From Zygnema cylindricum (Eukaryota > Streptophyta > Zygnematophyceae > Zygnematales > Zygnemataceae), in the NCBI GenBank assembly GCA_037447655.1, contig JBBHKE010002413.1:124001-188000 (forward strand): a stretch of 64,000 nt of DNA. Reading direction: 5' to 3'. The position numbers and the translations under genes are program-made. Within the stretch, counting starts at the first letter, position 1. Each line of letters starts with the position of its first letter. Below, piece by piece: positions 4,601 to 55,953 of this stretch. The notes below the pieces were generated by a model. The model ran no database searches and was not told where the DNA came from. It was given only the letters and a program-made list of their open reading frames with translations.

Positions 4601-7187
4601 CACTCTTTTCACTTGATGAGGACGTAAAACGAATTGGGGAAGTTGAGGCTGTGACCAAATTAGAAGGAGTACTTTGCAGCAACGGCCTCGATTGGGTGGG
4701 CCAACACATGTATTATATTGATTCTCATTTACAGGTAAAGGCTGTAACATCGCCCCACAAAGTTTTTGGGTGGCAAAGGATTTGTGAAAACGAATAGGCA
4801 ACCACTGCAAATAGTCTGGACAATTTCTGTTTGGAAATTTATTACAAGGAGCAACCATATAGAAATTGCACATGATTTAATGTGGACCTGAAATATCTAA
4901 TAAGTCGAGAATGGAAATCTACACACAGCGGGAGGTGGAGGGGGAGGAGGAGAAGGGGAGGCATGGAGGGATGGAGGGAGGAAGGGTGGGGAGAAGGATT
5001 TGAGGAGATGGGAAGGGGGAGTGCTGAGGGAGCTTATGGGTAGGGAGAGGGGGAGGGAGAGGAAGAGGAGGAAGGGGACGGGAGACGGAGAGGAAAAGAG
5101 AAACGTGTGTCTGCACTGTCTTTTGTGCGAATGAAACAAATAATATAGTGTTTTATGGTTTAATCCGCTTCAATCAAATGTATAATGTGTAAGAAACATG
5201 GTCATGTTTGGTAGTTTATTGCGATTTCTTCCAGTCTCTCTGAGTTTTGAGGCCTCTTTTGCAGTGTAGCGTGTGGACGTGATGGATTACAGCGAAGAGT
5301 CGGGAGATATTTGCAACAGAAGGACAGTGGTCAATTTTCCGAAAGAGGATGGTGGGTCTTCTGATGACAACAACAGATTTTGATAATAGTATTTGCTAGG
5401 TGATGATTTCTAATGTCGTAAGTTGAATCTAAATATTTCTAAGAATCGTAATACAGGATTCGTGGAACCAATTGTGAAGATGAATCCCAGCCTTTAAGAG
5501 CGATTTCATCCTCCTAGAAACTAGATTTAATCCAGGGGAGGGCGAGCGAGAGAGGAGAGGTTTTTCAAATTATGGCTATCAGAATGATGACTTTGTTCAC
5601 CATAGTAAATATCAATCTCACTCTTTTCATTATTTTGGCCAACTCAAGAAATCCTTCCCACTGTCAACCATGAAACAGCGTTGACAGCACATTAGTGCAA
5701 ACATCATATGCGAAAAAATTGTGAAGTCCCATTGTTAATTATGCAAATTAGCCTGAACCAAAAACCATGTCTTTTGTATCATGGTTATCTGTCAACACTC
5801 AAAGAAGTGTGAATACGACTCGAAATACATCTTTATTTATCTTTTAGCTCATCTTTATTACCTTAAAGACAAAAGGAAGAGTTTGTTTGTAATGGCTCTT
5901 CCATTTTGAGCTTTAGTATGTATTTTTAAACCTGTACTTAAGATTAATATTGCTATTCTGAAGCAAAAAAATGAAAATTTCAGATGACCCAACATCATCG
6001 AAAGCAGTCACAATATCAAGAAATCTACTAGTATATATGTATTTTTCTATCTTAATCATAGATTAAAAACGGCCTTGAGTCGGATTTTGTTTTATACTCT
6101 TTACCAGTTCATTTCAATGGGTAAAAATCCTTTCCGGGAACTGAGGTAAAAAAGAATTTGTGCAGACGTCATTTTTTTCTCAAACAAGCTTCTTTTTTTC
6201 GTTACCAGGATTTCCTGATGGTATGACTGTGGATGCGGATGGAAAACTTTGGGTGGCGATTTGGAGAGGAGGTTGCGTGGTTTGTTATGACCCTCAAACT
6301 GGACAAGAGGTCCTAAGAGTGCCAATTCCGGCAAAGTTTACGACCAGTGTCTGCTTTGGAGGTAAATGGGCGTGTTCATATCAGTCAATTTATTAGATTT
6401 CTTTGCTGGTTGTGACCCTCTGGCTAGTCGCCCTGTTGAAATAATCATTTCTTTAGGTTGGGAAAGATAAAAAGATAGTGATAATGATGGATAACAAAAG
6501 GAATTTCTCTAAAAATGTTTGAGTACTTTCGCTTTTGGTTTTTTCAACATTTGAAAAATATCTTCTTCATCTCCCTCTCCCGCTCCCTCTCTCTCTCCCT
6601 CACGTTTTGCTGGGTACTGAGCCCCTTATTACCTGCTGTTGATGGGATTTCCATGCAGGATCCGATCTGAGTGAGCTTTATGTCACTAGCTCCGCTGAAC
6701 CAGACGACGGTGAGATCTCAGTCCAGTTAGTTTGTCCCATTCTTATTTCTTTCCATTACTCCTATTTTTGCTTTTGTGTTTTCTTGTCTCATTTTTTTCT
6801 TGGGCATTCTGTCTTCAGTTCATTTTCTCCATGACTTGTAATGGTTCCTGTCTTTCCCATGTTTTGTTTTTTTTTTTACCTTCCCTTTGATGCACTGTGG
6901 GGTTCTCTTTCAGGCTAATGGTGTTGAAAACATGTTTCTAAAACAGAATTTGGATGAAATTCTATATATTTGGTTGAAAGTTGAATGGTGCAAAATGTTT
7001 TCTAAAGGTAAGTCAAAGTAGGTCTGGTTTATAAAACCGTTTTAAAGGGAAATGTTTGTCTATTTACGGGTGGTCAGGTAGTGGTCCCGATAATGTATCC
7101 GAACATCCTGGAGCTTTGTTTCGCGTACATATTCCCGGAGTGAAAGGTCGGGCTTATTCTCAAAGTTTTACAGGAGGGCCATTATGA
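1614..7187 (+). CDS. SMP-30/gluconolactonase/regucalcin family protein, 7 exons
   Basis: Exons are 1614-1850, 2310-2516, 4588-4734, 5270-5351, 6209-6361, 6659-6709 and 7078-7187. Phases join exactly to give 328 aa; the family is usually about 300 aa. This is a six-bladed beta-propeller, metal-dependent lactonase or sugar-acid hydrolase. Visible metal/active-site positions are E16 in LLGESPV, N112 in RCNDGKCDPRGRLWIGTM, N180 in CSNGLDW and D228 in FPDGMTVDADGKLW; the C-terminus has the usual PGALFRV motif. The start is the first ATG in frame with the conserved GESP block. No signal peptide is evident, so a cytosolic location is likely. Intron 2 is about 2 kb and intron 3 holds a purine-rich tract. 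The 82-bp exon 4 uses the acceptor TGTAG (5265-5269) because the upstream GCAG (5261-5264) leads to a stop. The physiological substrate cannot be told from sequence. Confidence 0.9.
4923..5103 (+). repeat. Purine-only GGA/GGGA low-complexity tract
   Basis: About 180 bases of almost pure G and A lie inside intron 3 of the lactonase, with many GGGAGG and GGGGGAGG runs. The complement is a long polypyrimidine tract. The tract could form G-quadruplex or triplex DNA. It is simple sequence, and the polyproline-like ORFs opposite it are artefacts. Confidence 0.8.
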
Positions 7188-7331: not shown

Positions 7332-7620
7332 CTAGACGTGCGACTGACTATGCAAGGAGATGGACAAGTTTCGGTGTTTTGCAACCACGAAAATAAGACA
7401 TATGTATATGAGTTTACGACGCCATATTTTGGTTTGGATTGAAATGGAATGGGATTGGTGAAGACGTGTATTGTTCAATGCTTCTAAATTGTTTTTTTCT
7501 TCTTTTTTGTCCAAAAATGAAACGCATTCACTCACATGCAGAGATATGTTTGCATAATTGAAGAAGATGGCCTATTCTAAAGGGGTTCAAATGTGTGAAC
7601 CATGTACTCAGGATATGATC

Positions 7621-7849
7621 TGTTGATTTCCGTGAAATTCGGGATTCGGTATGTCCCATATTAGGGAAAAGTGAGCCGGCTAGGGCTCAAACCTGGGACC
7701 TCTGACTTGAGCTGTCAGCGCACTAACCACTGTGCCACCAGCTCGATGTAGAGCTTGGCGGGTCCGTGCTTATTTATTTTAGGCGGCTTCGAGTGTGACG
7801 TATCACATTCTACCCCGTATTGAACAGGCATTCACGTGCCAATCCAACA
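7621..7849 (-). repeat. TRIM 3' LTR (intact tRNA-like region)
   Basis: This 229-bp LTR has TGTTG/CAACA ends. On the minus strand it runs TGTTGGATTGGCACGTG, then a variable region, the tRNA-like unit, a short T-run and the terminal CAACA. It is the downstream LTR of the minus-strand element. Confidence 0.85.
7673..7744 (-). tRNA. tRNA-like Pol III unit inside the LTR (nominal anticodon CTC)
   Basis: The 72-nt minus-strand sequence folds as a full cloverleaf. The acceptor stem is GAGCTGG/CCGGCTC (7 bp with one G-U), the D stem GCAC/GTGC, the anticodon stem CTGAC/GTCAG around loop AGCTCAA, and the T stem CCAGG/CCTAG with one mismatch around TTTGAGC. The A box TGGCACAGTGG is perfect and the B box is GGTTTGAGCCC (GGTTCGAGCCC in the sister LTR). 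A TTTT run follows 2 nt past the acceptor stem, as a Pol III terminator would. Position 33 is G instead of U and no CCA is encoded, so decoding function is doubtful. It is better read as a tRNA-derived promoter module carried by the LTR. Confidence 0.65.
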
Positions 7850-7890
7850 ACCCCCCTCACGGGAAGGCCAATCACACCATCCGCAATCCC

Positions 7891-7906
7891 GTTGGCTCCG
7901 ATACCA
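7891..7906 (-). promoter_or_regulatory. TRIM primer-binding site
   Basis: Immediately inside the 5' LTR on the minus strand is TGGTATCGGAGCCAAC. The copia-type site complementary to the 3' end of initiator tRNA-Met is TGGTATCAGAGC, so there is one mismatch in 12. Confidence 0.8.
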
Positions 7907-8114
7907 TGTTGATATCTATAAAATCCGGGATTCGGTATGTCCCATACTAGGAAAAGTGAGCCGGCTAGGGCTCGAACCTGGGACCTCCTAACCACTGTGC
8001 CACCAGCTCGATGTAAAGCCTGGCGGGTCGGTACCTATTTATTTTAGGCGGCTTAGAGTGTGACGTATCAAATTCTACCCCGTATTGAACCGGCATTCAC
8101 GTGCCAATCCAACA
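7907..8114 (-). repeat. TRIM 5' LTR (20-bp deletion in tRNA-like region)
   Basis: This 208-bp copy of the LTR lies upstream in element orientation. Apart from point differences and a one-base indel it lacks 20 bp, exactly the anticodon arm of the tRNA-like unit. Confidence 0.85.
7958..8009 (-). pseudogene. tRNA-like unit lacking the anticodon arm (5' LTR copy)
   Basis: This has the same acceptor stem, D arm and T arm as 7673-7744, but the 20 nt forming the anticodon arm are missing. The A box is intact and the B box GGTTCGAGCCC is closer to consensus than in the other LTR. It cannot act as a tRNA but could still bind TFIIIC. Confidence 0.7.
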
Positions 8115-8119
8115 TGATC

Positions 8120-19293: not shown

Positions 19294-22200
19294 ATGGCTG
19301 CTGCCAGTCTCCTGGATAGACTTGTTCTCCATCCCACGACATGCTCTCTGCCTCTGCAAGCTGCATGCAGCGGAGAGAGGGTCCCGCAATTTTCGGGATC
19401 AGGTTGGTACATACTGTTGCTTGCACTTTTAATTACCTTCCTTCTACTGTGTTATCCAGCTTTTGTATCACATTATTTGTTCAATTTTTAAAGTGTTATG
19501 AAATTCAATGTCGTTTTAGTGTTGTCTTTTTGGTGCAGTCAGTTACTCATTGGTTTTTCCTTACATCCACGCTTTGCGGGTGTTAATCTATTTAATATTT
19601 CTTAGAAACGACATATGAAATTGTGTTTGTTAAAGGAAAAGTTTTTGACGTCAAAATGTGAATGTTAGAACTATTGACTTTTGCTCAAACTTGTGAAATT
19701 CAATTGAGTTCCTTGTATTTGAGGGGCCCTGAAAATTCGAAACAAACTTGAAACGTCGTTTTTACTAAGTTTTATCTAGCAAAAAATAGCAGTAATCTGA
19801 TAAGTGTAGTTGCTAGTGTTGTTAATCTGTTGGGGAGTATGTGGAATAGGTTGGTTTGGAGCTCCTGTGAAGCACAATTACAGCAGTTTCTCAAGAGAAC
19901 AGAGGAGTAGAGAAGTGCCTACCAGACGTCTGACCACCTTTGCACAAGAGGTTCCTTTAACGGCGCCTCCTGCTGTTGATTCTCCCACTTCAAATGGAAG
20001 CGCTACTGTTGGGCTCACAACTCCCTCTAGGCCCTCTCTGCCAGAGGTTAGTGCCCTAGCTTTCGCTTGTCCACAAGCTTGTGGACGATATGCCCAATCT
20101 GGTGAACCATGTATATACATTGCCATTATGAGCATTCAATTTAATATTTAACTTGAAATTTTATCAACCATCATACCTCAAAGATGCAGATTCTGTTTGG
20201 CTTGCATCTATGTATGCAAGTTAGGGGCCGGGTTACAATGTTGCCATTCTCATGTCGATAGTATGAAAGGTATTTGTATTGTCTTATTAGTTTTCTGGAT
20301 CTGTTGAGAATGTTAACTTGTGACTGCTACTGCGTCATTCTCACCCTTTAATGTCTGCACCTCTGTTAAGTAACCCTTCACTAAAATTATTTTTGCAAGC
20401 TTTCCTTGGTGTTCGTTTTTATCATACAGCACCTTTACCTTGATTTAGCTATGTGAGAGTAAGGGCGTTGTGGTATTACGATTCATTTTTTTGTTACAGA
20501 TTACTTTTGAAAGTCTCGACACACCAGCAATGGAATTCAAAGGCGATTTGCTCCTCTTAGGAGTTTTTGACGACGCACTGGATTCTGAAAACAATTTTTC
20601 CTTCCTCGACTCTTTCTTGACGGAGGTTGATGCCAGTCTCTCAGGCCTTCTAAGTGAAGTAGCATCCGAGGAAGAATTCAAGGGCAAGTCTGGCCAGACA
20701 GTGATTGTAAGGCTACAGGGTCTTGGAGTCAAGAGATTGGGACTCGTAGGGCTTGGAAAGAAGGAGAATGCATCAGCACCTGGACCTTGGAAAGCCCTCG
20801 GAGGATCTCTTGCAACAATAGCGAAGCAAGCCAAAGTAGTCACAGCTGGTGTAGCTGTTATCAACACTTCAGGTCTCACAACCGCGGCTCTCACAGCAGC
20901 TGCTGGTTCCATTTCTGCAGGTGAGATTTTTTTGATTTCTTTGCGTTATGCCATTGTTTCATTGTGTTGTATCCTTATATTTATTGGATAATGACACACA
21001 TACGGGATTACTGGCCATTACTAGATAGTATTCGCGGTAAAATTCTACAGTTAAGTGTACCAATTGTACGTTTTTCTCTGCGATTATTGCAATTACTGTC
21101 CAATGATGCCAGTAATCACGTATTGTATGATGACCTTACTATCTTGATTGCCAGTGTCTCTTGATACTTATCATTCCAGACCTTTCACTAAGTCTTTTTG
21201 GATGTGGGTTCAGGGACACTGCTGGGAGCTTTTGAGGACTCGAGGTTTAAAGCTGAAGTGAAGCCGCCTACATTACAATCGGTTTCCCTTTTTGGCCTCC
21301 CTACTGGAGAAGAAGTGGAGGAGGTTGTCGGTATGGCAGCTCGATTGGCAGCTGGAGTTATCCTCACCAAGCAGCTCGTGAATGCTCCAGCCAATGTTCT
21401 CACTCCTTGTATGTCATTTAACAAATAAGTGAATTGGGAGTTCGCAGATTGAAAAACAATGTAGTTTGCAGCAGGTTTATTGATAGGAGACGTCTGATTT
21501 TAGATATTTCCTTATTGGTTATGATGCTGGAGATTCTTAAAGTTGCTGAACCATTGTACTTTACATATTGCGAATGTCAAATGGCATGCAACTTAGAATG
21601 GTTCCTAAGGTTATACCTTGTTTGGATTTTCCTTTGTGCATAATTCACTTAGGAGACAAGAGGGGATTGTCAAGTAGGTTTGATTTTCTGGTACACTTCG
21701 GCTGATTCATGTGTATTGCAAGTAACTGTCAATTTTTAATATTATTATTATTGTTGTTCTATGTTTTCAGGTGCTCTTGCGGAAGTTGCAGAGGCAATTG
21801 CTTTTGCACATAGTGATGTGATGACTGCAACTATTTTGGATGAGAAGGAATGTGCGGATCTGAAAATGGGAGCATACCTAGGAGTAGCCGCCGCATCCAC
21901 CAATCCCCCTCGTTTTATTCACTTAAAGTATACACCAGAGGGTCCAGTAAAAACAAAGCTGGCAATCGTTGGGAAGGGACTTACTTTTGACAGGTGAGGC
22001 AGGGAACATGAAGGGACAAACTATTTAGTGCCCGTAACTATTAAGGCAGGTATAAATTTTAGCAAAGCGTCCAGACTATATCTTGTGCTTTTTAACATGT
22101 ATGAGATCTTCTGCATTTTAACTAAAGATGGAGCAAGCCAAGATCATACTGTTTACTTCTAGCTCCTTAAAACGTTTAGGCCTGTCTAAAAGCAAAACTC

Positions 22201-25200
22201 CGCAATACAATATCCACCTTGTATTTCTTCACAGAAAAAAAAATCTAATAAGTCTGTTGGTACATTTCGGTTACTTCAATGCCAAGAGAGATGAAAATGA
22301 AGTGTTAGTATGAATAACTCAAAATTCTGGTCATTTTGTTGTCATGCTGGAAGGCAAACAAAAATTTGACCAAAATCTTGTATATCCAAATTTTCCACTG
22401 TCAGATAATGGTCACTATGCCTTCATGCGAACCTTAAATAAAGCGATGTACATGTGAGGCTTCCATGCATGTTTGGACTAACTCCATAAATGTATGATTT
22501 ACTGCTACACATCTATGAATGCATGGCAGTTTAAGCTGCTTGACAGTGAATCAATCCAAATAAAGTCAGTCTATAGTGTAACCATTTAAATAATTCTTTG
22601 GATAAACCATATCGGCCAAACTGGTTTTGGCAAAGCAAAATTACAATGCTCGCTTTGGAAATTAACATGGGATATCCGGTGGTTGTGACGCAGTGGAGGT
22701 TACAATATTAAAGCAGGGGCCGGATCCATGATAGAGCTTATGAAGTTTGATATGGGAGGAGCCGGGGCCACTTTAGGAGCTGCCAAGGCCATTGGAGCTA
22801 TTCAGCCTCCTGGAGTGGAGGTGAGCTGATGCTTCCTACCTATTGAAAAATGTTGAAAAGTGGGGGCCGTTTTTAAGTACTATAGCACGGTTGAATCATT
22901 CTGTCATTATAGCACGGTCGAATCATTCTGTCAAGTCAAGCATTTATCACATGACACTCTCCTTGTGGACAGAATCATCTTTCAGTTTCTTCACCTGTGT
23001 CTTTTATTGGTTCCATGCAGGATAAGATTGTCTAGTATGGTTTTTTTGCTTTTTTTCTGCACCATGAGTTCTTCTTGTTTTGATTTCTTCATGGGCATGA
23101 TGTTTGCTGTGTTTTTAATTTATCTTAAGATACTAAGAAAGACTTGCTTTGGCGTGTGAATTTGGCCAGGTACACTTTATTGTGGCAGCCTGTGAAAATA
23201 TGATTAGTGGAGGAGGCATGCGTCCGGGAGACATTCTCACTGCTTCAAATGGCAGAACCATCGAGGTTGGTCGAACCAGTTTATTTCCTGTTAAAGACTT
23301 CGCAAATCACTATTAGTGTTAAGAGCGCGGTATTTGTTGTAGCGAGTGACGTTAATTATTTTCAAACGTTTACTAAATTTGCGATAAGAAAAAATCAATT
23401 AGTGTCATTAACGCTATTTTATGTTTAATGACCAAAAATAACTCCAACAAATTAGTGTAATTAATGCTGAGATCTAAAGATGCGTGCTGTACCTTAAATT
23501 TGGGTGGAATTTGTTCAACATGTCAAATCCATAGCCCACTTACTCGCCATTTAAAACCCCTGCCTGCCTCTCCCTTCCTTACTCGTTGAAGTGGGCAAAG
23601 TAACAATGGCTAGCCCAGAACTTCACTCAAATGTCATATTAATTTTGTTTTCACTCTACTTCATTGGCACTGCAACAAATTTCTTGTTCTGTCTTCCGGA
23701 TCGCATACATATGTTGTCGGTAGTGTTAACTTATTAACTTGTAGTCTTGCGAATGGTTCAGGTGAATAACACAGACGCAGAGGGACGTCTTACCCTTGCT
23801 GATGCACTCATATATACATGCAAGCTAGGACCCAACAAGGTGAGCCCATTTTGCACGTTTCTTCTTTTTAAACGAGGGGTTACTAAAAAACATTTTTGTT
23901 CTGAAGTTTGGTGGGAAGCTAGCTAAATACATGGGTTATTGGGTTGTCAATATTCATCGAGTTCTTGTTACTTTTACATCGGGTGTTTGTCATTTCTGAC
24001 TGCTGGGGACTTTAATTCTAAGACTTCACCTCGGGACTCTGATACGCTTCAAGTTATGTAGATGTACTCTAAACTAACCTTCAGGATTTCTTAATTAGTC
24101 CGTCCTCCAAGCTCGGATTGTCTGCATTTGAAAGATTATCATTGCAGGTCACCATGATTGAATCTTGTACAGATGGAAATAAAATTGGTTTAATTGTTAT
24201 TTCATGTGTAGACTGCTATTGCCCTGATCATTTATGCCCTTATAGTTATTTGGAATAAGTTTCTAGTTGAAGTCTCTGGGCTTGAGCTGGGTTGATAAAT
24301 ACAGTGATTTTGGAAGAAACAACTTGGTTGAAACTTCGACTGACAGGTAAAAATCGCCTGTGTTTTTTCAGATTGTGGATTTAGCGACTCTTACTGGAGC
24401 CTGCATTATTGCCCTAGGAAATGACATTGCAGGTCAGCTCTCCTAATTGTTTGCCTGTTGGTTCTCTCCATTGAAGAAGTCAAAAACGTGTTTCTTTTGT
24501 GTCTATAAAACTGGAGACCTCAATGCCACCAGCAATTCACTGGGTTTTGGAGTTGTTTCTGCTGTCTAAATTTTGAAACCACTCTCTGTAGGCTTGTTTT
24601 AAGTTGTGTTTGATGGTCAAGATATTTGTTAACACTTGACGTTACCTTGTGTTTATCAGCATAAAAAGAGGCAAGTTGATTTATTGATTGCCTGCATAAT
24701 AAGCATTGTCATTATCTTTTGGAAGGATGGTAACATCTTCCGCTGAAAAAAAAAAATCTTCTTTTAGTGAGGGCTGTCTTATACTTGATAACATTTTCAA
24801 TTGTCTGGGCTGTATGTGCTATTTGTGTTGTCACTTGTCACACTACACATTTTTCAAATTGCATGCCATAATCGATTAACTGGATTTTTTACCCTCTCTT
24901 TAGCTCCCTTGCAAACTCCCACAGTTGTTTGTGACAATTAGGCATCCTCAATTTTTTCAATATCATAAACTGCAATAGGAATAATGTCATGCACACATCA
25001 CATACGATCTGCCACTCAAGACATCGTTGAATGATTTTCACTTCTTCTTAGGGAGATGTTGCCTTCTCATGTACCTGTGAAGAAGTCTGTTATGGATATA
25101 GAACCGCCAGTGACTGGAAAAGGAAAACAGTACAAACAAGTGATCTATGGATCACTTGCAGGCCTGTTCACTCCCCAAGCTCCCATGAAGCACACCTGTC

Positions 25201-26341
25201 AAAAATCTACAAGAACCGCTGAATCTGTTAAAATCTTGTGAGATATGGACATTTTTGCTTGATTGTGTGTCAGAATCTGTACGTTGATATAAAAATGGAT
25301 TACGTGTACTATTTTTAAGTGAATGGAAACAGAAAAGGTTAACCGGCTATATGTATGGACCTTTTGCAGGCATGTTCACTCCCCAGGATTCCATGGCCGA
25401 AGAGTTGCAGGAGGCTTCTAAGGGGGCTGGAGAGAAATTGTGGAGGATGCCAATGGAGGAGAGTTATGCGGAAATGTTAAAATCCAATATTGCAGACACT
25501 TCGAACATAGGTGGACGGCCGGCAGGCTCTATAACTGCTGCCCTCTTCTTAAAAGAGGTATGCTCGTCGTACTCTATTTATGGTTTAACTGGAATGATGT
25601 TAATATCCGCCATCTTAGTATATAAGATGCTTAAATCTCTAAGCAATCACCGATAAGAAAAAAGGAAACCTTCAATATTTCATAATAATTGTCACGTTTT
25701 AAGTTTAACTGAATAAAGTCTGTTAGAAATTGGTCATACTATTTATCTACTGTCTGGCAAATCTGTAAAGTTTCAATAAATATTCTGGAGGATTGAGAAC
25801 CTGTCTGGCTTTGCCTAAGTTTGGTTAAAGCCAAGAATATATGAAGGTTTAACACTTGAACAATACAGGTAACGAAAGTCTTGCCATAACTGCTTTTTTT
25901 ATATCGGGGCCTACTGGTTTACCTGCTGGTAGTTTGCAATCCACACCATTTTTCCCACTTATCTTTTGAGATGTTTATTGGTTATGATCACAAGCTGAGC
26001 AGCAGAAATACACGACTATGTTGCCTTTGTATATATTATTTTTTGGTCAATATGGTAGTTATATTCTCTGATCTGCTGCCGGGTTTGAGCACAGGTGAAA
26101 AGAATCACTTGAGCTGATCTGATTATAAGAAGACCACTAAACTGAAGGTAAATTGCATCTGAAACTGAAGTGACTGAGTGATTTTACTGGATTTGGGGGA
26201 CAGTTTGTAGACAAGGACATTCCCTGGGCCCACTTGGACATAGCTGGACCAGTGTGGAGCGAAAAGAAGGGAGGAGGTACAGGTTTTGGAGTCGCAACTT
26301 TAGTACAATGGGTGACAAAACATGCTAAAGTCACAGCATAA
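19294..26341 (+). CDS. LAP: Leucine aminopeptidase (M17, cytosol aminopeptidase family), 11 exons
   Basis: Exons are 19294-19402, 19862-20046, 20500-20920, 21214-21408, 21771-21993, 22694-22820, 23170-23265, 23762-23839, 24372-24432, 25370-25557 and 26204-26341. All are GT-AG and in phase, giving 606 aa. M17 enzymes are hexameric two-metal exopeptidases that remove N-terminal residues. Catalytic blocks are [15 protein letters not shown] (metal Lys and Asp, about residues 370-384) and the family signature NTDAEGRL (455-462). The first 98 or so residues are Ser/Ala/Pro-rich and non-conserved, fitting a plastid transit peptide as in plant LAPs. The frame is open upstream with ATGs at 19129 and 19168, so the start is uncertain. 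Exon 2 could also begin at 19850 in frame. A decayed duplicate of exon 10 lies in intron 9. Confidence 0.93.
25162..25241 (+). pseudogene. Decayed duplicate of LAP exon 10 in intron 9
   Basis: The sequence around 25145-25190 repeats that of 25352-25399 (TATGGA, a GCAGG acceptor, TTCACTCCCCA, CCATG). In the same phase it reads [10 protein letters not shown], matching [10 protein letters not shown] of the true exon. It then loses similarity and stops at 25239, with no matching donor. It is best read as a partial exon duplication that decayed; use as an alternative exon would truncate the enzyme. Confidence 0.7.
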
Positions 26342-40000: not shown

Positions 40001-43000
40001 CTGCAAAAAGACGTGATTGCAACTAAAGTTGAGAAGAAGGGAACTAAAGGGAAAAGGTCCAGCGAAGAAGGTACAAATTAATTTGCTGGCAAAGTTTATT
40101 TGCACAAAGACAATGCCAGTTGACACAATTTTGTGTGTGAGTTTCCACACCAGATGTGAGCCACATAAACTCATGTTTTATACTAATCGGAACTATTTAA
40201 TCTCTAATAAATATATATCAGGCTTAAATGTGTTTAAACATTTTTTGGCTCAGGTGGTTAATGACCAGTGTTATGTCTACAGGAGATGTTCCTTACGACA
40301 ATCAACAATCTGAAGCACTTCACTAACTTGACAAGAAAAAACACAATTTATAAACCGGAGGTAAAAACATTAGTGAGATACAAAATTCATGTCATTAGAC
40401 CATCTCGTCTAGGTACATGGACTTGAAAAAAAATGATTCCTGACAAATGGTTGGTAGAGATAATTGTTAGACCAAATCATTGCAAGAATAAAGCAAGGAA
40501 TCTTTACTTGAAGAACCACACCACAGCGGCACTTGTTCAGTTACTCTGACACAGATCAAACAACCTCACAAAGGGGAAAATAATGTCATTACGTCCTGAA
40601 AACTAAAAGCAGCAAACTTCTCTGTCATGACAACAGCCCACATAAGTTACCTCATAAGTTCTAATAAGCTCCTTGGGGTCGTTTAGAGATTGCTGTGCAT
40701 CTGAAGCCTCCACTGCGATTGACAACATTCCCTCCACATCCTGCAACCGTAAGACATTACAAAAAGCCCCAAGGTAAAAAATCTCCAAGACAAAAATCTA
40801 ACATCAGAAAGTGCTCATAATCCAGAGCCACTGGACGGCCTACTTGACAACAAAACGTAACAGAAGCTTGCCAATGTCTCAATAAAAAAAACGGAGGAAC
40901 AGGTTCCATGTGGAACTGTAACACATAAGACTTGCTTCTAAGTGCTACACAATCTTCTGTTCCTGAAAATGTTATCAATCCCAGAGCATAAAACCAAAAT
41001 ACCACAAAGAACATGTTTGAGATAAACAGCGGGTTTCTTTAAGGGGTGTAGAAAGAGCTGGACCACTAACAAGAAATTCCCACCACATTGACCCATGTCA
41101 ATGCATCGTTTGGGATATGTACCGAGACAAAGTGACATGGGAAGGAATTGGCAACAGAGTAACCTTGAGTAAACTTCAGCCAAGACAATTTTTGAGCATA
41201 AAGTTAAACTGCGCAACTGCATGGGCGATATTTGCTACACCCTTTCACCTCAGCCACCCACAATTCCAAACACCATTGTTCTCATCTCCCTACGTTTTAA
41301 TCACCCTCGGTTCCACTACACCCCTAATTCTTAGTCACTCTCCTCACTCTCAGTCTCAAGGCCTCCTCACAATGCAGCCTCACTTTCAATGTCCCTTAGT
41401 CTCAATCACCTTGAGTGTCGTGTTGAGGTTATTTCGAACAACGCTGAGCTTCTGAATCAAATCATGGTTCTCGATTAACGCATCGCACTCCTTGCAAAGC
41501 CTGCATTCACACCACAATTTTGCCACTCACTCTTCTCTGATTTTCTTTTAGCCTTTCAACAGTACACGTAAATATTCATTGCATAATTGTAGAAATATTC
41601 CGAACTGTGGGACAATCTCAATATTTTTTCTGAACCAGACTAAACAACCCCAGATAATAAGGGTCAGCCCAATCTAAGAAAGTCTGACAGCATGCCCATT
41701 TGATTTTTCAATGAAAAAAGTACCCGGAGACACCAAAAACGAAGGAGGAAAAAACAAATATTCTAAACAACGGGATAGGGAGATCCAGGGAGCTCCTATC
41801 CCAACAGGTTAGGGAGCTTCTAAATCACCTTTCAATAGTCATGAAGTTTTGTCGCAAAGATACAATAGTAGCTTGTGATTTTGACAGCGCGTCAATACCT
41901 GCCCGTGCTTGCTCTACCTGTGTGTCAAAACACACAAAAAACATGGTTCAAATTAAGAAACAAACAATAATATAAGTAATATATATTATATATACACATA
42001 GCAAAGGAAATATCCACATCCCTACACCCAGCATTGATAGTTTGTCATGTGTAGGGGCACCCAGCCAGAACTCGAAACAAACAGGAGGTCCTTGAGGGTT
42101 TTACCAACGTGGTTTTTGCTATTTTTAAGAAGTAAGAGCATACTAAAGATGTCTAATACAAACACTAGCCGCCACTAAAGACAAACAAGGCATTTTCCTC
42201 ACAAAAGAAAAGCTATTAAAACCCAAATGTCTTTTGACAAGAGGCATTTCAGTTGATCGAAATGGAAAACAGTTTCACCTGTGTCGTCACACTGGAGCTT
42301 AACTGTGCATCATTGGCCTGCCCCAAAAACACACAAATTTAGCACAAAAATCCCGTCAAGATCTGTTGGCCCAATCATGTTAGAGCAAAAACAAAAACTC
42401 CGTTAAGTTACTCAAATTTGCCTTGTTTCTATCAAGCGATCACAAGCTTACCGAACTGAATGCCAATCCAATTCTGCTCAGCTTCAATTTACTTAATACT
42501 TCTCCCAGCTATTCTGTTCCTATCTATTTGTCCCATCTATTCACTAAAGAGACAAGGGCAAAACTTGCTCATGTTGGTGTCACCAGAACACACAAATTTA
42601 GCACAAAAATCCCGTCAAGATCCATAGGCCCAATCATGTTAGAGCAAAAACAAAAACTCCGTTAAGTTACTCAAATTTGCCTTGTTTCTATCAAGCGATC
42701 ACAAGCTTACTGAACTGAATGCCAATCCAATTCGGCTCAGCTTCAATTTACTTAATACTTCTCCCAGCTATTCTGTTCCTATCTATTTGTCCCATCTATT
42801 CACTAAAGAGACAAGGGCAAAACTTGCTCATGTTGGTGTCGCCAGTCAAACAAAGTAAAGACTTGCCAACTTCAAAGTTTCAACAATGGGACACTGTATG
42901 TTCAAAAAGCTTTGATCTGTGTGAAGCCTCAGACTCAAAAGACAAGAAGTATGTTAATTACGCTTTTCAAATGTCGGACAAGTACAGGCATTAGAAACAT

Positions 43001-49500: not shown

Positions 49501-50845
49501 ATGTCACCCCAGCCTCATGGTGAACGATACGTCGTCGCACTCGACTTCGGAACCACGTTTTCCGGCGTCGCATATGCTCGCAAGTCCTTCCCTGACGATG
49601 TTTTCCTCATCGACCATTGGCCGGCACAGGAAGAGCATGCGATTCCGTACTGCAAAACGCCAACCGCACTTTGGTACATGCAGGACGAATGCAGTGCCTG
49701 GGTCGCACGTGCGTGGGGCTGGCAGGCCATCGACGGTTTCACCAAAGAATTTGACGCTGCAAGACGTAGCAAAACAGAGGCAGAAAAACCTGCAGCAGGA
49801 TATATTGTAAAGCGATTCAAGCTCCAGTTGTCCGATGAAGGGACGCCTGAAATTCAAACCGGTCTTCCTCCCGGTGTTACTGCTGACATGGCGATTGCCG
49901 ACTACTTGCGAGGCATGTCTGAATATGTTCTGAAAGAGCTGCGTGAAGAATTTGGCTCACACGTGCGAATGAAGGAATTAGAGTGGGCGCTCACTGTGCC
50001 AGCTATCTGGGGAGAAAAGGCAAAGCAGAAAATGTGCGATCTTGCCCGAGAAGCCGGGATGACTGTCGAAGGATCTCCGCCTCTCAGCATCATTCTGGAG
50101 CCAGAGGCGGCTTCCACATATTGCTTCCACAAGCAGGCGGTCACAGTGCAGAAAAAAGACAGAATATTGGTTCTTGACGTGGGAGGAGGCACAGTGGACA
50201 TTGTGGTTCATGAGAAGGTGGGAGATGAAGCGGAGGTGAGAGAGGTAACAAGGAGCAGTGGAGGACTGTGCGGGTCTTCCTACCTTGACGAGTGTTTTTT
50301 TAAATTTTTGGAGCAGAAGATAAACTGTTTAAAGAGCTGCGTGCAGCAGGATCCGGGCATCTTAGCAAAGCTGTTAAAGCAATGGGATAAAATCAAGAGG
50401 ACATTCAGGTGAAACCACATCGATCCAGTCAAAACTCTGAAATTTGTCACAAATCGAGCTACATGCCCCCTTTGAGTTCTGTTTCTTCATTTTGAGATTA
50501 CTGTGTCTGTATGTACAGTACTGTAGTCAAATTCTATATAAAAACACGTAAATTTCTTTGTTATTGTACACGTTCCCCTACGGAGATCCAACCGCATGTT
50601 TTTTTCTTAACAATGACTGTTTCTGTTTACATAACATGTTGCATTTTTTTGTTTTCAGTGGTGACGGTCGCCTGAAATACTTCGATCTTCCAACCAAGCT
50701 TGCTGCTGCTTGGGAGAAAACCGGTGCCTATGAACCTGATTTTGATTCGATTGAGTTTACGCGAAAATATATCCAACGGTCATTCTTTTCTCCCAGACCT
50801 TTGGAGAATATTGGCAAGATTCTCTGTAATGTTGTTCGCGTATAA
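49501..50845 (+). CDS. HSPA12-type Hsp70-like ATPase, 3' end replaced by transposon
   Basis: Exon 1 is 49501-50408 and exon 2 is 50659-50845 (GT-AG, phase 2). The product of about 364 aa contains the actin/Hsp70 ATP-binding elements: VALDFGTTFSGVAYA (phosphate 1, residues 11-25), WALTVPAIW, IILEPEAASTYC and LVLDVGGGTVDIVVHE (phosphate 2, about 223-238). The spacing is of the HSPA12A/B kind, not canonical DnaK. HSPA12 proteins are usually 550-680 aa, so the distal half of the fold is missing. From about 50760 (after EFTR) the frame runs into a TIR-element end and stops after about 26 foreign residues. No continuation was found beyond it. It is probably a truncated pseudogene, though a short chimeric protein remains possible. 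Confidence 0.8.
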
Positions 50846-52405: not shown

Positions 52406-52912
52406 ATGGCCCCTCACAAGCGGCGGGCGTCGCGCTCCCCGTCACAATCTTCTTCGGAATGTGCTCGGCCTCGATTGGAAATCTCAGATGAGATCCTTAC
52501 CCCTCCACAACATCCCTCCCAAACCATCAATGCCCCCCTCCCCACTTTACCCTTACCCGCATGTACCCTTCCCCCCATGACAACCAACCTTTGCACAGAG
52601 TCATGTGAGGAAGCATGTCCCGATGAGTGTGTGCCCCTCCTAGCTCCTACGAACCCTATTCCATCCCCATCTTCTTGCCTAGAGCCTCCCCCTAATCCTG
52701 TTCAACCTTACCGTCCACCTCATTTTGGGGAGCAGTCTCAACCTTCGCATCCGCACTTGCATGTCCACCCGATCGCCCCTATTGTTACTCCTCCGGCTCC
52801 TTCACTCACTCAGCCTACTTTGGCTCCCCTATCAAATCATGGTCCTCTTAGGGTGCCGTGCCCTCAGTGTGGGAAGTTGTATGTTGCGGGGGGGGTTTGT
52901 CGCGACATTTGA
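52406..52912 (+). pseudogene. Retrotransposon N-terminal segment: Pro-rich plus half zinc finger
   Basis: The 168-codon frame opens with basic MAPHKRRASRS, is Pro/Ser-rich throughout, and ends in PCPQCGKLYVAGG, the first half of a C2HC-type finger. The second half (LSRHLKSC) continues in the overlapping frame starting at 52858. The switch point is a run of eight G at 52888-52895. A lost G is the simplest explanation; -1 slippage is an alternative. Confidence 0.75.
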
Positions 52913-55209
52913 AGTCATGTCCTCTCACTCCTAAAGGAATTCCACCCCCCACTAAAGGCCATCCTCCACCCTCAAGTGTCCGCCAACAACCGTCTTCTAC
53001 TGATTGGGACTATGTTCGACGCTTAGACGTCCTTGGGTGTTACCACCTAGGTTATCCTCGGCCTAGGCTCTACACTCGTATTCCGAACCATCTTCGTGAA
53101 TCTGTCCAAGCGGCTCTTCGACTCCCTTTGGCTTTATTGGCAGCCGACATCACCAACGACGCGGCTTGGCATTTACTTTTCTTATTCCCACTTTGGGTTC
53201 TAGTTTTGCCACCGAGGGGAGGGGCGAGCGGGGCCCGTGAGACTAAAGCGCGGTGTCAACGGTTTTTGAGAGGGGATTGGGAGTCCTTGCAACAAGAGCA
53301 TACAGATCGTGTCATCAGTCTTTCTATGTCCCCCCCTCAACGTCGTGCCCCACTCCCAGGCTCCACGGGTAGGTTGCATCGGGCGGTCCACCTTGGTCGT
53401 TCTGGCGAGTATTCTCGGGCTGCTCGTGCTCTTCGACCTTTCCAACCATCTCCGTCTTCCGAGGCGACGGTTGAGGCCTTACGTTTATTACATCCTCCTG
53501 CCCCTGAAGAGATCCTCCCATTCGTGGAAGTCCATGATCCTCTTGAATCGTTCGACTTGGAGCGGGAAGCATTTACTACAGCTTTGCTTCGGTCGCCTCA
53601 TCTTTCTTCAGGAGGCCCATCTGGGATGGTGTACGAACTCCTCAGGGACATATTTCCTCCAGACATACCCTCTCAGGGTTTTGATCTTCTTTTTAAGGTG
53701 GCTTCAGAGGTGGCTCGAGGACACGTTCCTCACAATGTTGTACCCCTTCTCTCTGCGGCTCGCCTTGTGGCTATTACTAAACCTGCTGGGGGAATTCGCC
53801 CAATTGCTATCGGTGAGGTGTTGTACCGTTTGGTTGCTCGCTCAATGTGTATTCAACTCCAAGGGGCTTTCCATGACCATTTTTCACCGCATCAGTTCGG
53901 AGTTGCTACAAAAGGGGGTTGTGAGGCGGTTGTTCATGGTCTTCGAGCTGTTTTGGATCTCCATCCGGATTGGGTAGTCCTCCAGGTAGATATTGCAAAC
54001 GCCTTTAACACTGTCAACCGTAATGCTATCTTTCGAGAATTGAGACATGCTCCATCTCCCATCAGCCACATTTTCCCTTTTGTTCGTGCATTTTATTCTC
54101 GCCCGAGCTCCCTCATCTTTCCTCTTGGCGGTCCCTTTGGTGAGGTTGCCACATTGGAGTCTGCGACTGGCACCCGTCAAGGTGATCCTTTGGGGGCCCC
54201 CCTTTTTGCTTTAGCTCACCTTCAAGCTTTGCGCGACTCTGCTATGACTTTTCCTAATTGTTTATTCCCATCTATCGCGGATGATACTCATATTGTGGGC
54301 CCTCGTGACCAAGTTTTATCTGCCTTTTCTCATTTTGCGGAGCAACTTCGTCGGATTGGTTTGTCAGTCAAGCCGTCTAAATGTGTGGCTTGGTGCCCGC
54401 AAGCCTTACCTTCAGACTTCCCTGTTCCTGTGGGTTTTCGTATTGCATCTCCGACCGACGGTATTAAAGCTTTAGGCTCTCCTATTGGTGCCCCATCTTT
54501 TGTGAACCAAGTTGTCACTGATGCATTGTTGGAGGACCTCTCTCACTCTGATGACCTTCCTAAGCTCTCCGACTCCCAAGTGGCATTTCAAATCCTCACT
54601 CGTTGCTTTGCTCAACGTCCTCTGTATCTCGCTCGGACGGTACCACCAACAGATCCATTTTTGTCCTCACTAAAAGGGTTCGACGATCAACTTTTTAGTG
54701 TTCTCCATCACCTCGTTGGGCATGGGATTTTCGATCGCCCAGAGGGTTTATTTGCACGCCGTCAAGCTAGCCTTCCAATTTCCAACGGGGGTTTAGGTTT
54801 GATTCTAGTGGCTCGAGTTGCTCCAGCAGCTTTTTTGGGTAGTTGGGCTTTAGTGGCGCCTTCCATCGCTTCCCGTTTTATTGCAAATGATGTTCCCATT
54901 CTAGCCAAAGTCGTCCCTAAAGTGGAGGATAATCTTTTTCCGTTTCATCAAGCTCTTCTCTCCGCTCGTGCACTTCTTCCGTGTGATGCCCGAAACCAAG
55001 CGCCACCTTTCCCGTCCCTTATTGCTGACAATAACTACCATGTGCAACAACGCATATCCGAGCAGTTGGCAGTCGCTGAATTTTATGATCTATTAAACGC
55101 GCTACCTTCCGCTCAATCGCGTGCTCGCTTACGTTCGTGTTCTGGGCCGAGAGCCGATGCGTGGTTACAGGCAACACCGAATTTTTCGACGCTTTCGTAT
55201 GACGTCTGA
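52858..55209 (+). CDS. Retrotransposon reverse transcriptase
   Basis: This long frame (783 codons; the first ATG at 52858 is probably not the native start) begins with the second half of the zinc finger. RT motifs are in order: FQVDIANAFN-type motif A (VLQVDIANAFNTVNR, about 53980), GTRQGDPLGAPLFALA motif B (about 54175), SIADDTHI catalytic motif C (IADD in place of the usual YADD/FADD, about 54275) and SVKPSKC motif D. A thumb/linker follows with LPISNGGLGL. The frame breaks at about 55195, after which the sequence continues in another frame. The two catalytic Asp of motif C are intact. Confidence 0.9.
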   Translation: MPSVWEVVCCGGGLSRHLKSCPLTPKGIPPPTKGHPPPSSVRQQPSSTDWDYVRRLDVLGCYHLGYPRPRLYTRIPNHLRESVQAALRLPLALLAADITNDAAWHLLFLFPLWVLVLPPRGGASGARETKARCQRFLRGDWESLQQEHTDRVISLSMSPPQRRAPLPGSTGRLHRAVHLGRSGEYSRAARALRPFQPSPSSEATVEALRLLHPPAPEEILPFVEVHDPLESFDLEREAFTTALLRSPHLSSGGPSGMVYELLRDIFPPDIPSQGFDLLFKVASEVARGHVPHNVVPLLSAARLVAITKPAGGIRPIAIGEVLYRLVARSMCIQLQGAFHDHFSPHQFGVATKGGCEAVVHGLRAVLDLHPDWVVLQVDIANAFNTVNRNAIFRELRHAPSPISHIFPFVRAFYSRPSSLIFPLGGPFGEVATLESATGTRQGDPLGAPLFALAHLQALRDSAMTFPNCLFPSIADDTHIVGPRDQVLSAFSHFAEQLRRIGLSVKPSKCVAWCPQALPSDFPVPVGFRIASPTDGIKALGSPIGAPSFVNQVVTDALLEDLSHSDDLPKLSDSQVAFQILTRCFAQRPLYLARTVPPTDPFLSSLKGFDDQLFSVLHHLVGHGIFDRPEGLFARRQASLPISNGGLGLILVARVAPAAFLGSWALVAPSIASRFIANDVPILAKVVPKVEDNLFPFHQALLSARALLPCDARNQAPPFPSLIADNNYHVQQRISEQLAVAEFYDLLNALPSAQSRARLRSCSGPRADAWLQATPNFSTLSYDV

Positions 55210-55953
55210 CCAGTTCACCTCTGCTATCCGCCTTCGTTTGGGTTTGCCTCACCCTCCGCTTCTTGGGCGCCCCAACTGTATTTGCAACCAGCCTATTGAC
55301 TCCAACGGCATCCATTTACTTCGTTGTTCGCGGGGGGGTGAACGTACCGTCGCGCATGATTTGGTTCGTGATGCGGTTGCTGCGATTGGTGTTGAAGCAG
55401 GCTACATTGTGAAGCGGAGGTTTCTCATATCTTACCTCCTCGTCCCCAATCTAGTGGTATCCGAAGCCCTCGGGTTGACTTGGTTTTCCTTCATGGGACT
55501 GGGCGGACTTTGGGTGATGTGGTCCTTACTGATCCGATTGGGACCCACATTTTTTCTCGCGCGGCAGTGCATACAGGTGTGGCGACTAGGGACGCATCGG
55601 CTTCCAAGGAGAGGGATTACGCTCACCGAGACCCGGCGGACCAGTTTGTCCCATTTGCCGCAGAGATTTTTGGTTCTTTGGACAAGTATTTCGATGATTT
55701 TCTTCGCAACTGTGCTAAGAGAGCTTTTGATTCTAGGGGTCCAGGGAGCCTCCCCCAAGCCTTCTGGTTGCTTTTTATCGGCAACGTGTATCGATCGCCC
55801 TTCAACGAGCGCAAGCTGCGGCCCTTCTCCGTCGAGGCACGGTGGCGGACGATAGGCGAAGCCTCCCAGACCTTCCTCCACGAGATCTGGTCCACATCCA
55901 CGATCTTCGGGGGTGTGGAATTTAGTTTGCTGGGTTTGTGGGGCATCATATAG
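55195..55953 (+). pseudogene. Retrotransposon C-terminus: zinc knuckle and restriction-like endonuclease, split by a frameshift
   Basis: One frame (to about 55410) encodes RLRLGLPHPP, then CICNQPIDSNGIHLLRCSRGG with Cys/His spacing like the R2-type knuckle, and HDLVRDAV. A different frame from about 55410 carries SGIRSPRVDLVF, GDVVLTDPIG, ASASKERDYAHRDPADQFVPFAAEIFG in segments: the R..D, D, K..Y pattern of a PD-(D/E)XK nuclease. The stop is at about 55951. The two shifts compensate each other. The nuclease would nick the target to prime reverse transcription. Confidence 0.75.

Follow-up and report, generated by a model that had tools for sequence, protein, structure and literature searches.

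The 494-bp element at positions 7621-8114 of the window, the 64,000-nucleotide stretch of DNA analysed here, probably belongs to a family of Helenus-type TRIMs from a probable streptophyte alga, and Pol III transcription is inferred for its LTRs. Direct reading and self-BLAST gave it the layout of an LTR retrotransposon on the minus strand. The initial annotation had described a complete element of this length with the TSD TGATC, LTRs starting with TGTTG and ending with CAACA, an iMet-type PBS and a polypurine tract (PPT), and all of these are present, arranged as follows.

7616-7620: TSD TGATC, left copy (direct reading and script)
7621-7849, minus strand: 3' LTR, 229 bp, full length (self-BLAST)
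7667-7670, minus strand: TTTT, candidate Pol III terminator, right behind the tRNA-like block (direct reading)
7672-7744, minus strand: tRNA-like block, complete, 73 nt (ARAGORN, RF00005 and covariance model R1)
7683-7693, minus strand: B box, window form GGTTTGAGCCC, the family's commonest form being GGTTCGAGCCC (direct reading)
7727-7737, minus strand: A box TGGCACAGTGG (direct reading)
7850-7860, minus strand: PPT GTGAGGGGGGT, G-rich, adjoining the 3' LTR (direct reading)
7850-7906, minus strand: internal region, 57 bp, non-coding (self-BLAST and script)
7894-7906, minus strand: PBS TGGTATCGGAGCC, beside the 5' LTR, which we take to be of the iMet type (direct reading)
7907-8114, minus strand: 5' LTR, 208 bp, with a 20-bp deletion within the tRNA-like block (self-BLAST)
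7957-8009, minus strand: tRNA-like block of the 5' LTR, truncated, anticodon arm mostly gone (covariance model R1, 51.1 bits)
8115-8119: TSD TGATC, right copy (direct reading and script)

In the self-BLAST alignment of the two LTRs, 193 of 229 columns are identical, with 21 gaps and 15 mismatches. The 5' LTR measures 208 bp instead of 229 bp mainly because 20 bp of its tRNA-like block are gone. Since the LTRs of one element are normally identical at insertion, this deletion probably arose afterwards. A tRNA-like block had been proposed for each LTR: both indeed carry one, complete in the 3' LTR alone. As for its signals, the A box and the TTTT are exactly as first described, and the B box is present with one change (GGTTTGA versus GGTTCGA).

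At least 46 matches to the element were found in its own genome (352.8 Mb, 2689 contigs), a lower bound, since scoring covered 40 of the 854 first-look candidates. The family set comprised 38 loci and the window, that is 40 elements and 86 LTRs. Two of its members, L035 and L036, agree in length, in TSD and in internal sequence, and their starts are separated by 6.75 kb of the same contig; they may go back to a single insertion that was duplicated, which would then count double. LTR matches are about 229 bp long in most copies. The commonest form has an LTR of 229 bp, an internal region of 57 bp and a total of 515 bp, a length reached exactly by 11 of the 40 elements; complete two-LTR elements (n=27) range from 494 to 552 bp, and arrays of 3 or 4 LTRs, 783-1084 bp long, occupy 5 of the 38 loci. 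An exact 5-bp TSD flanks 20 of the 31 elements with both ends complete, and is absent from the other 11. Among 46 internal regions, 35 are 57 bp long, 42 contain the PBS core TGGTATC (31 in the form TGGTATCNGAGCC) and 40 have a run of at least five G near their end. With two LTRs, a total below 1 kb, no coding sequence, a PBS, a PPT and a 5-bp TSD, these elements have the features that define TRIMs.

Between the LTRs at the two ends of an element, identity ranges from 75% to 100%, gaps uncounted; on the same count, 3 of the 40 pairs show no difference and 8 are at least 99% identical. Because LTR-pair identity spans this range, the family has moved recently and also long ago. In a 200-kb sample of the genome, two family loci were found, both inside one of the 20 segments, too small a number for estimating how many copies the genome contains.

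We then consider the tRNA-like block itself. In the 64-kb window ARAGORN called one tRNA gene, Glu(CTC), at 7671-7744 on the minus strand; an Rfam scan of the entire window, at gathering score and with fast filters, reported no match. With laxer filters on the 3.5-kb locus L001, the block of the window 3' LTR scored 45.9 bits against RF00005 (gathering score 29), and it reached 104.2 bits with covariance model R1, whose alignment includes the window copy itself. Looked for across the LTR copies of the genome, the block proved to be family-wide and no one-off: of the 86 LTRs, 68 received a tRNA call from ARAGORN, which was Glu(CTC) for 62 of them, and 18 received none. RF00005 matched 20 of 21 LTRs from nine hand-chosen loci, 19 at or above gathering score and 14 at 54.6 bits, the score of the commonest form of the block, and no non-standard pairs are marked in the two RF00005 alignments shown. 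One 73-nt block is letter-identical in 18 of the 86 LTRs. There is little doubt, then, that the block is tRNA-derived.

On the 200-kb sample ARAGORN called no tRNA, hence no host tRNA gene either; the sample nonetheless held one fairly intact and some decayed family blocks, which ARAGORN missed. In L047, an old copy outside the alignment of R1 whose LTR matches are 72-78% identical, the block scored 62.3 bits with R1. This locus also shows internal duplications (5855-6442), and in one of these the junction falls close to the A box of the block. At L016 (4630-4724), sub-threshold matches to several miRNA families were found on both strands, and are probably due to simple sequence and chance.

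Signals expected of a Pol III unit recur in the LTRs. The A box TGGCACAGTGG is exact in 64 of the 86, and its more general form TRGCnnAGTGG occurs in 70; the B box is GGTTCGAGCCC in 48 and GGTTCGANNCC (GGTTCGAnnCC form) in 53. The motif CTCA[CT]TTTT is found in 72 LTRs, and the longest T run is of 4 in 77 LTRs, of 5 in five and of 3 in four. The anticodon loop reads AGCUCAA in 69 LTRs, with a G where U33 is expected.

The host-independent Pol III transcript suggested in the initial annotation is plausible, and from these motifs a replication cycle can be proposed. Pol III would initiate in the 5' LTR, close to where the tRNA-like block has its 5' end. Some transcripts would read through the short 4-T stop of this LTR, and the full-length RNA would end at the corresponding TTTT of the 3' LTR; such read-through is needed because the 4-T stop sits in both LTRs. 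The RNA of a 515-bp copy would then measure about 364 nt, and the tRNA-like sequence of about 78 nt repeated at its two ends would act as R region. Reverse transcription, primed by initiator tRNA-Met, would depend on enzymes supplied by an autonomous Copia element, strand transfer would proceed via R, the second strand would be made from the G-run, and integration would create the 5-bp TSD. Both the 5-bp TSD and the iMet PBS are compatible with mobilisation by Copia, and say no more than that. Transcripts halting at the first TTTT would end as short tRNA-like by-products. A further suggestion, which we regard as rather doubtful, is that the 4-T stop would balance short tRNA-like RNA against transposable RNA, by being passed over in the first LTR and effective in the second.

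The fold of the block and its constraint were then analysed. The initial annotation had described a 72-nt cloverleaf: the complete block has 73 nt and is called as a tRNA by ARAGORN, but folded for minimum free energy it does not form a cloverleaf (z of -0.36 for the window copy and -1.13 for a young copy). For compensatory changes, the 86 LTRs were reduced to 55 different blocks, all exactly 73 nt long: the window 3' block and 54 blocks of the loci. Repeated sequences and blocks containing indels were left out. The outcome was weakly positive: four pairs were changed on both sides versus 3.0 in shuffles, and 171 of 500 shuffles were as high. Other measures were 9 cells changed on both sides versus 4.0 (3/500 shuffles as high), 20 further pair types versus 18.0 (55/500), a covariation score of 0.094 versus 0.084 (2/500) and 92.5% of cells paired versus 92.1% (18/500). 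Because relatedness alone can raise such measures, the covariation seen in the stems of the aligned blocks is counted as weak.

Mean column identity is 0.950 in the block, 0.933 upstream and 0.935 downstream, so that the block is just slightly more conserved. Whether the block changes more slowly along the lineage that transposes was then examined. A first count of changes along the tree gave 44 internal and 187 terminal changes in the block versus 130 and 275 in the rest of the LTR (p 0.0004), a result which was not robust to controls. With block and terminator together, on all columns and 86 LTRs, p was 0.0027, and 35 of 229 rotated masks were as low. A tree from the outside columns gave 3.6e-06 (6/229 rotations), by a design that favours this result, and a tree from the block columns gave 0.51 (88/229). 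Keeping a single LTR for each element (39 LTRs, omitting L036 as the likely duplicate of L035) gave a p of 0.18 (75/229 rotations). When columns were split, p was 0.011 for non-CpG and 0.086 for CpG columns. Much of the contrast between the block and the rest stems from a variable stretch at LTR positions 46-75.

These tests bear on what the block does in the LTR. The family could be an ordinary TRIM transcribed by Pol II, in which a tRNA or a SINE inserted into the LTR long ago and is now a passenger. The weak covariation, a constraint signal that was not robust to controls and the non-cloverleaf fold all agree with this, the TTTT could terminate Pol III transcription prematurely, and AAATAAATA is present in 25 of the 86 LTRs. 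However, the three elements with identical LTRs have one intact block of 54.6 bits in common in all six of their LTRs, and no TATA was found in the five young LTRs examined. We hold such a passenger origin to be possible but unlikely, and we prefer the Helenus-type TRIM with LTRs transcribed by Pol III.

The Glu(CTC) calls raise another question, namely whether the element is a vehicle spreading functional tRNA-Glu(CUC) genes. The G at the position of U33 and the minimum-free-energy fold argue against it, as they do against tRNA mimicry, a function proposed in the initial annotation and disfavoured here. Even if a few Helenus families may encode tRNA, as allowed for in Kojima 2024 (PMC10886601), we judge this vehicle function very improbable. 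As to a chance tRNA-like fold or a one-off nested insertion, the silent fast Rfam scan of the whole window and a single-strand folding energy no better than that of many shuffles would fit; the many copies of the block, still recognisable in the old copy L047, and the shuffles (no ARAGORN tRNA call in 2000 dinucleotide shuffles, 1000 for each of two LTRs) rule it out, and we leave it next to no credit.

A comparison with known elements places the family, as a Helenus-type TRIM, within a published kind. The initial annotation saw in it the tRNA counterpart of Cassandra, which is right in kind: such TRIMs were named Helenus in Kojima 2024 (PMC10886601). The term TRIMp3 is also proposed there; it calls for a functional Pol III promoter, of which the motifs are present here. 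Helenus elements, as described in that paper, are TRIMs with tRNA-derived sequence in their LTRs. They occur in fungi and animals, and the only plant listed is a lycophyte, Selaginella moellendorffii, whose family has an LTR of 120 bp and an internal region of 85 bp. The family described here resembles them in being a non-coding TRIM of a few hundred bp in multiple copies with a PBS and a PPT, and in carrying A and B boxes as part of a tRNA-like sequence in its LTRs, the 5' block of the window copy being truncated; it shares the 5-bp TSD with the fungal and plant Helenus families. The form usual in Helenus is TRGCY (PMC10886601), from which TGGCA departs here at the fifth base, whereas YGG and GGTTC fit. 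Compared by description, it differs from the Selaginella family in its LTR of 229 bp, its internal region of 57 bp and its host, a probable streptophyte alga. Since multiple origins of Helenus are proposed (PMC10886601), the name requires no homology. By these described features, we assign the elements to Helenus as a new family, the kind being published and the lineage new.

With Cassandra it shares Pol III promoter and terminator motifs within the LTR, a methionine-type PBS, and tandem arrays with shared LTRs (PMC7215508). Unlike that of Cassandra, an element of vascular plants whose promoter derives from 5S rRNA, the promoter here is tRNA-derived, and a scan of the nine loci with Rfam gave no 5S rRNA match up to an E value of 0.1. 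Pol III transcription is supported by the literature for Cassandra, whereas here it is predicted from motifs. Like tRNA-derived SINEs (SINE2), the element is short, non-coding and equipped with tRNA-derived A and B boxes; unlike SINEs, which have no LTR, PBS or PPT, it keeps a full acceptor stem followed by TTTT. Gao 2016 (PMC4717578) lists TRIMs in Selaginella and in three algae (Chlamydomonas, Volvox and Chondrus), not in Physcomitrella, and no mention of tRNA is found in its available main text. In the titles and abstracts of the open-licence literature found, no tRNA-bearing TRIM was reported in an alga.

In the green lineage, the known range of tRNA-bearing TRIMs would grow beyond one lycophyte and take in a probable streptophyte alga, and if this family is related to that of Selaginella, such elements would be older than land plants. 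Some copies are young enough for testing whether Pol III drives an LTR retrotransposon. As a warning for annotation, some apparent tRNA-Glu(CTC) genes of this genome are retrotransposon LTRs (62 in the 86 LTRs).

The nature of the host was approached with a leucine aminopeptidase gene at about 20449-25656 of the window. Among the best 120 of 4642 matches, a metagenome protein is 68% identical, SM000101S09250, presumably a Spirogloea identifier, 66%, and sequences of Calypogeia, Sphagnum and Klebsormidium 64%. Among the same 120, some flowering-plant rows are equal in bits, and the top match by bits is Phtheirospermum, at 46% identity. In a midpoint-rooted tree built from 28 rows, of which 27 were hand-chosen from the best 120, the window grouped with Spirogloea, Klebsormidium and two other rows, apart from the land-plant rows, with support 98/97; this tree carries warnings for the long branch of eukprot176 and for the letter make-up of the Spirogloea row. 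By this one-gene tree, the host is probably a streptophyte alga, outside land plants.

Other features were noted in the window. At 52858-55953, a reverse transcriptase ORF (RVT_1, 1.1e-17) precedes ORFs that overlap in other frames, a Cys-His motif being present in one of them; the whole looks like a decayed non-LTR retrotransposon. An Hsp70-like ORF of 303 aa lies at 49501-50412, with 24-45% identity among the best 120 of 147 matches; the best named ones among these include proteins of the liverwort Calypogeia, the fern Ceratopteris and fungi, as well as animal HSPA12-like proteins. Finally, a 259-bp unit is present in two tandem copies at 42328-42845, with 97% matches.
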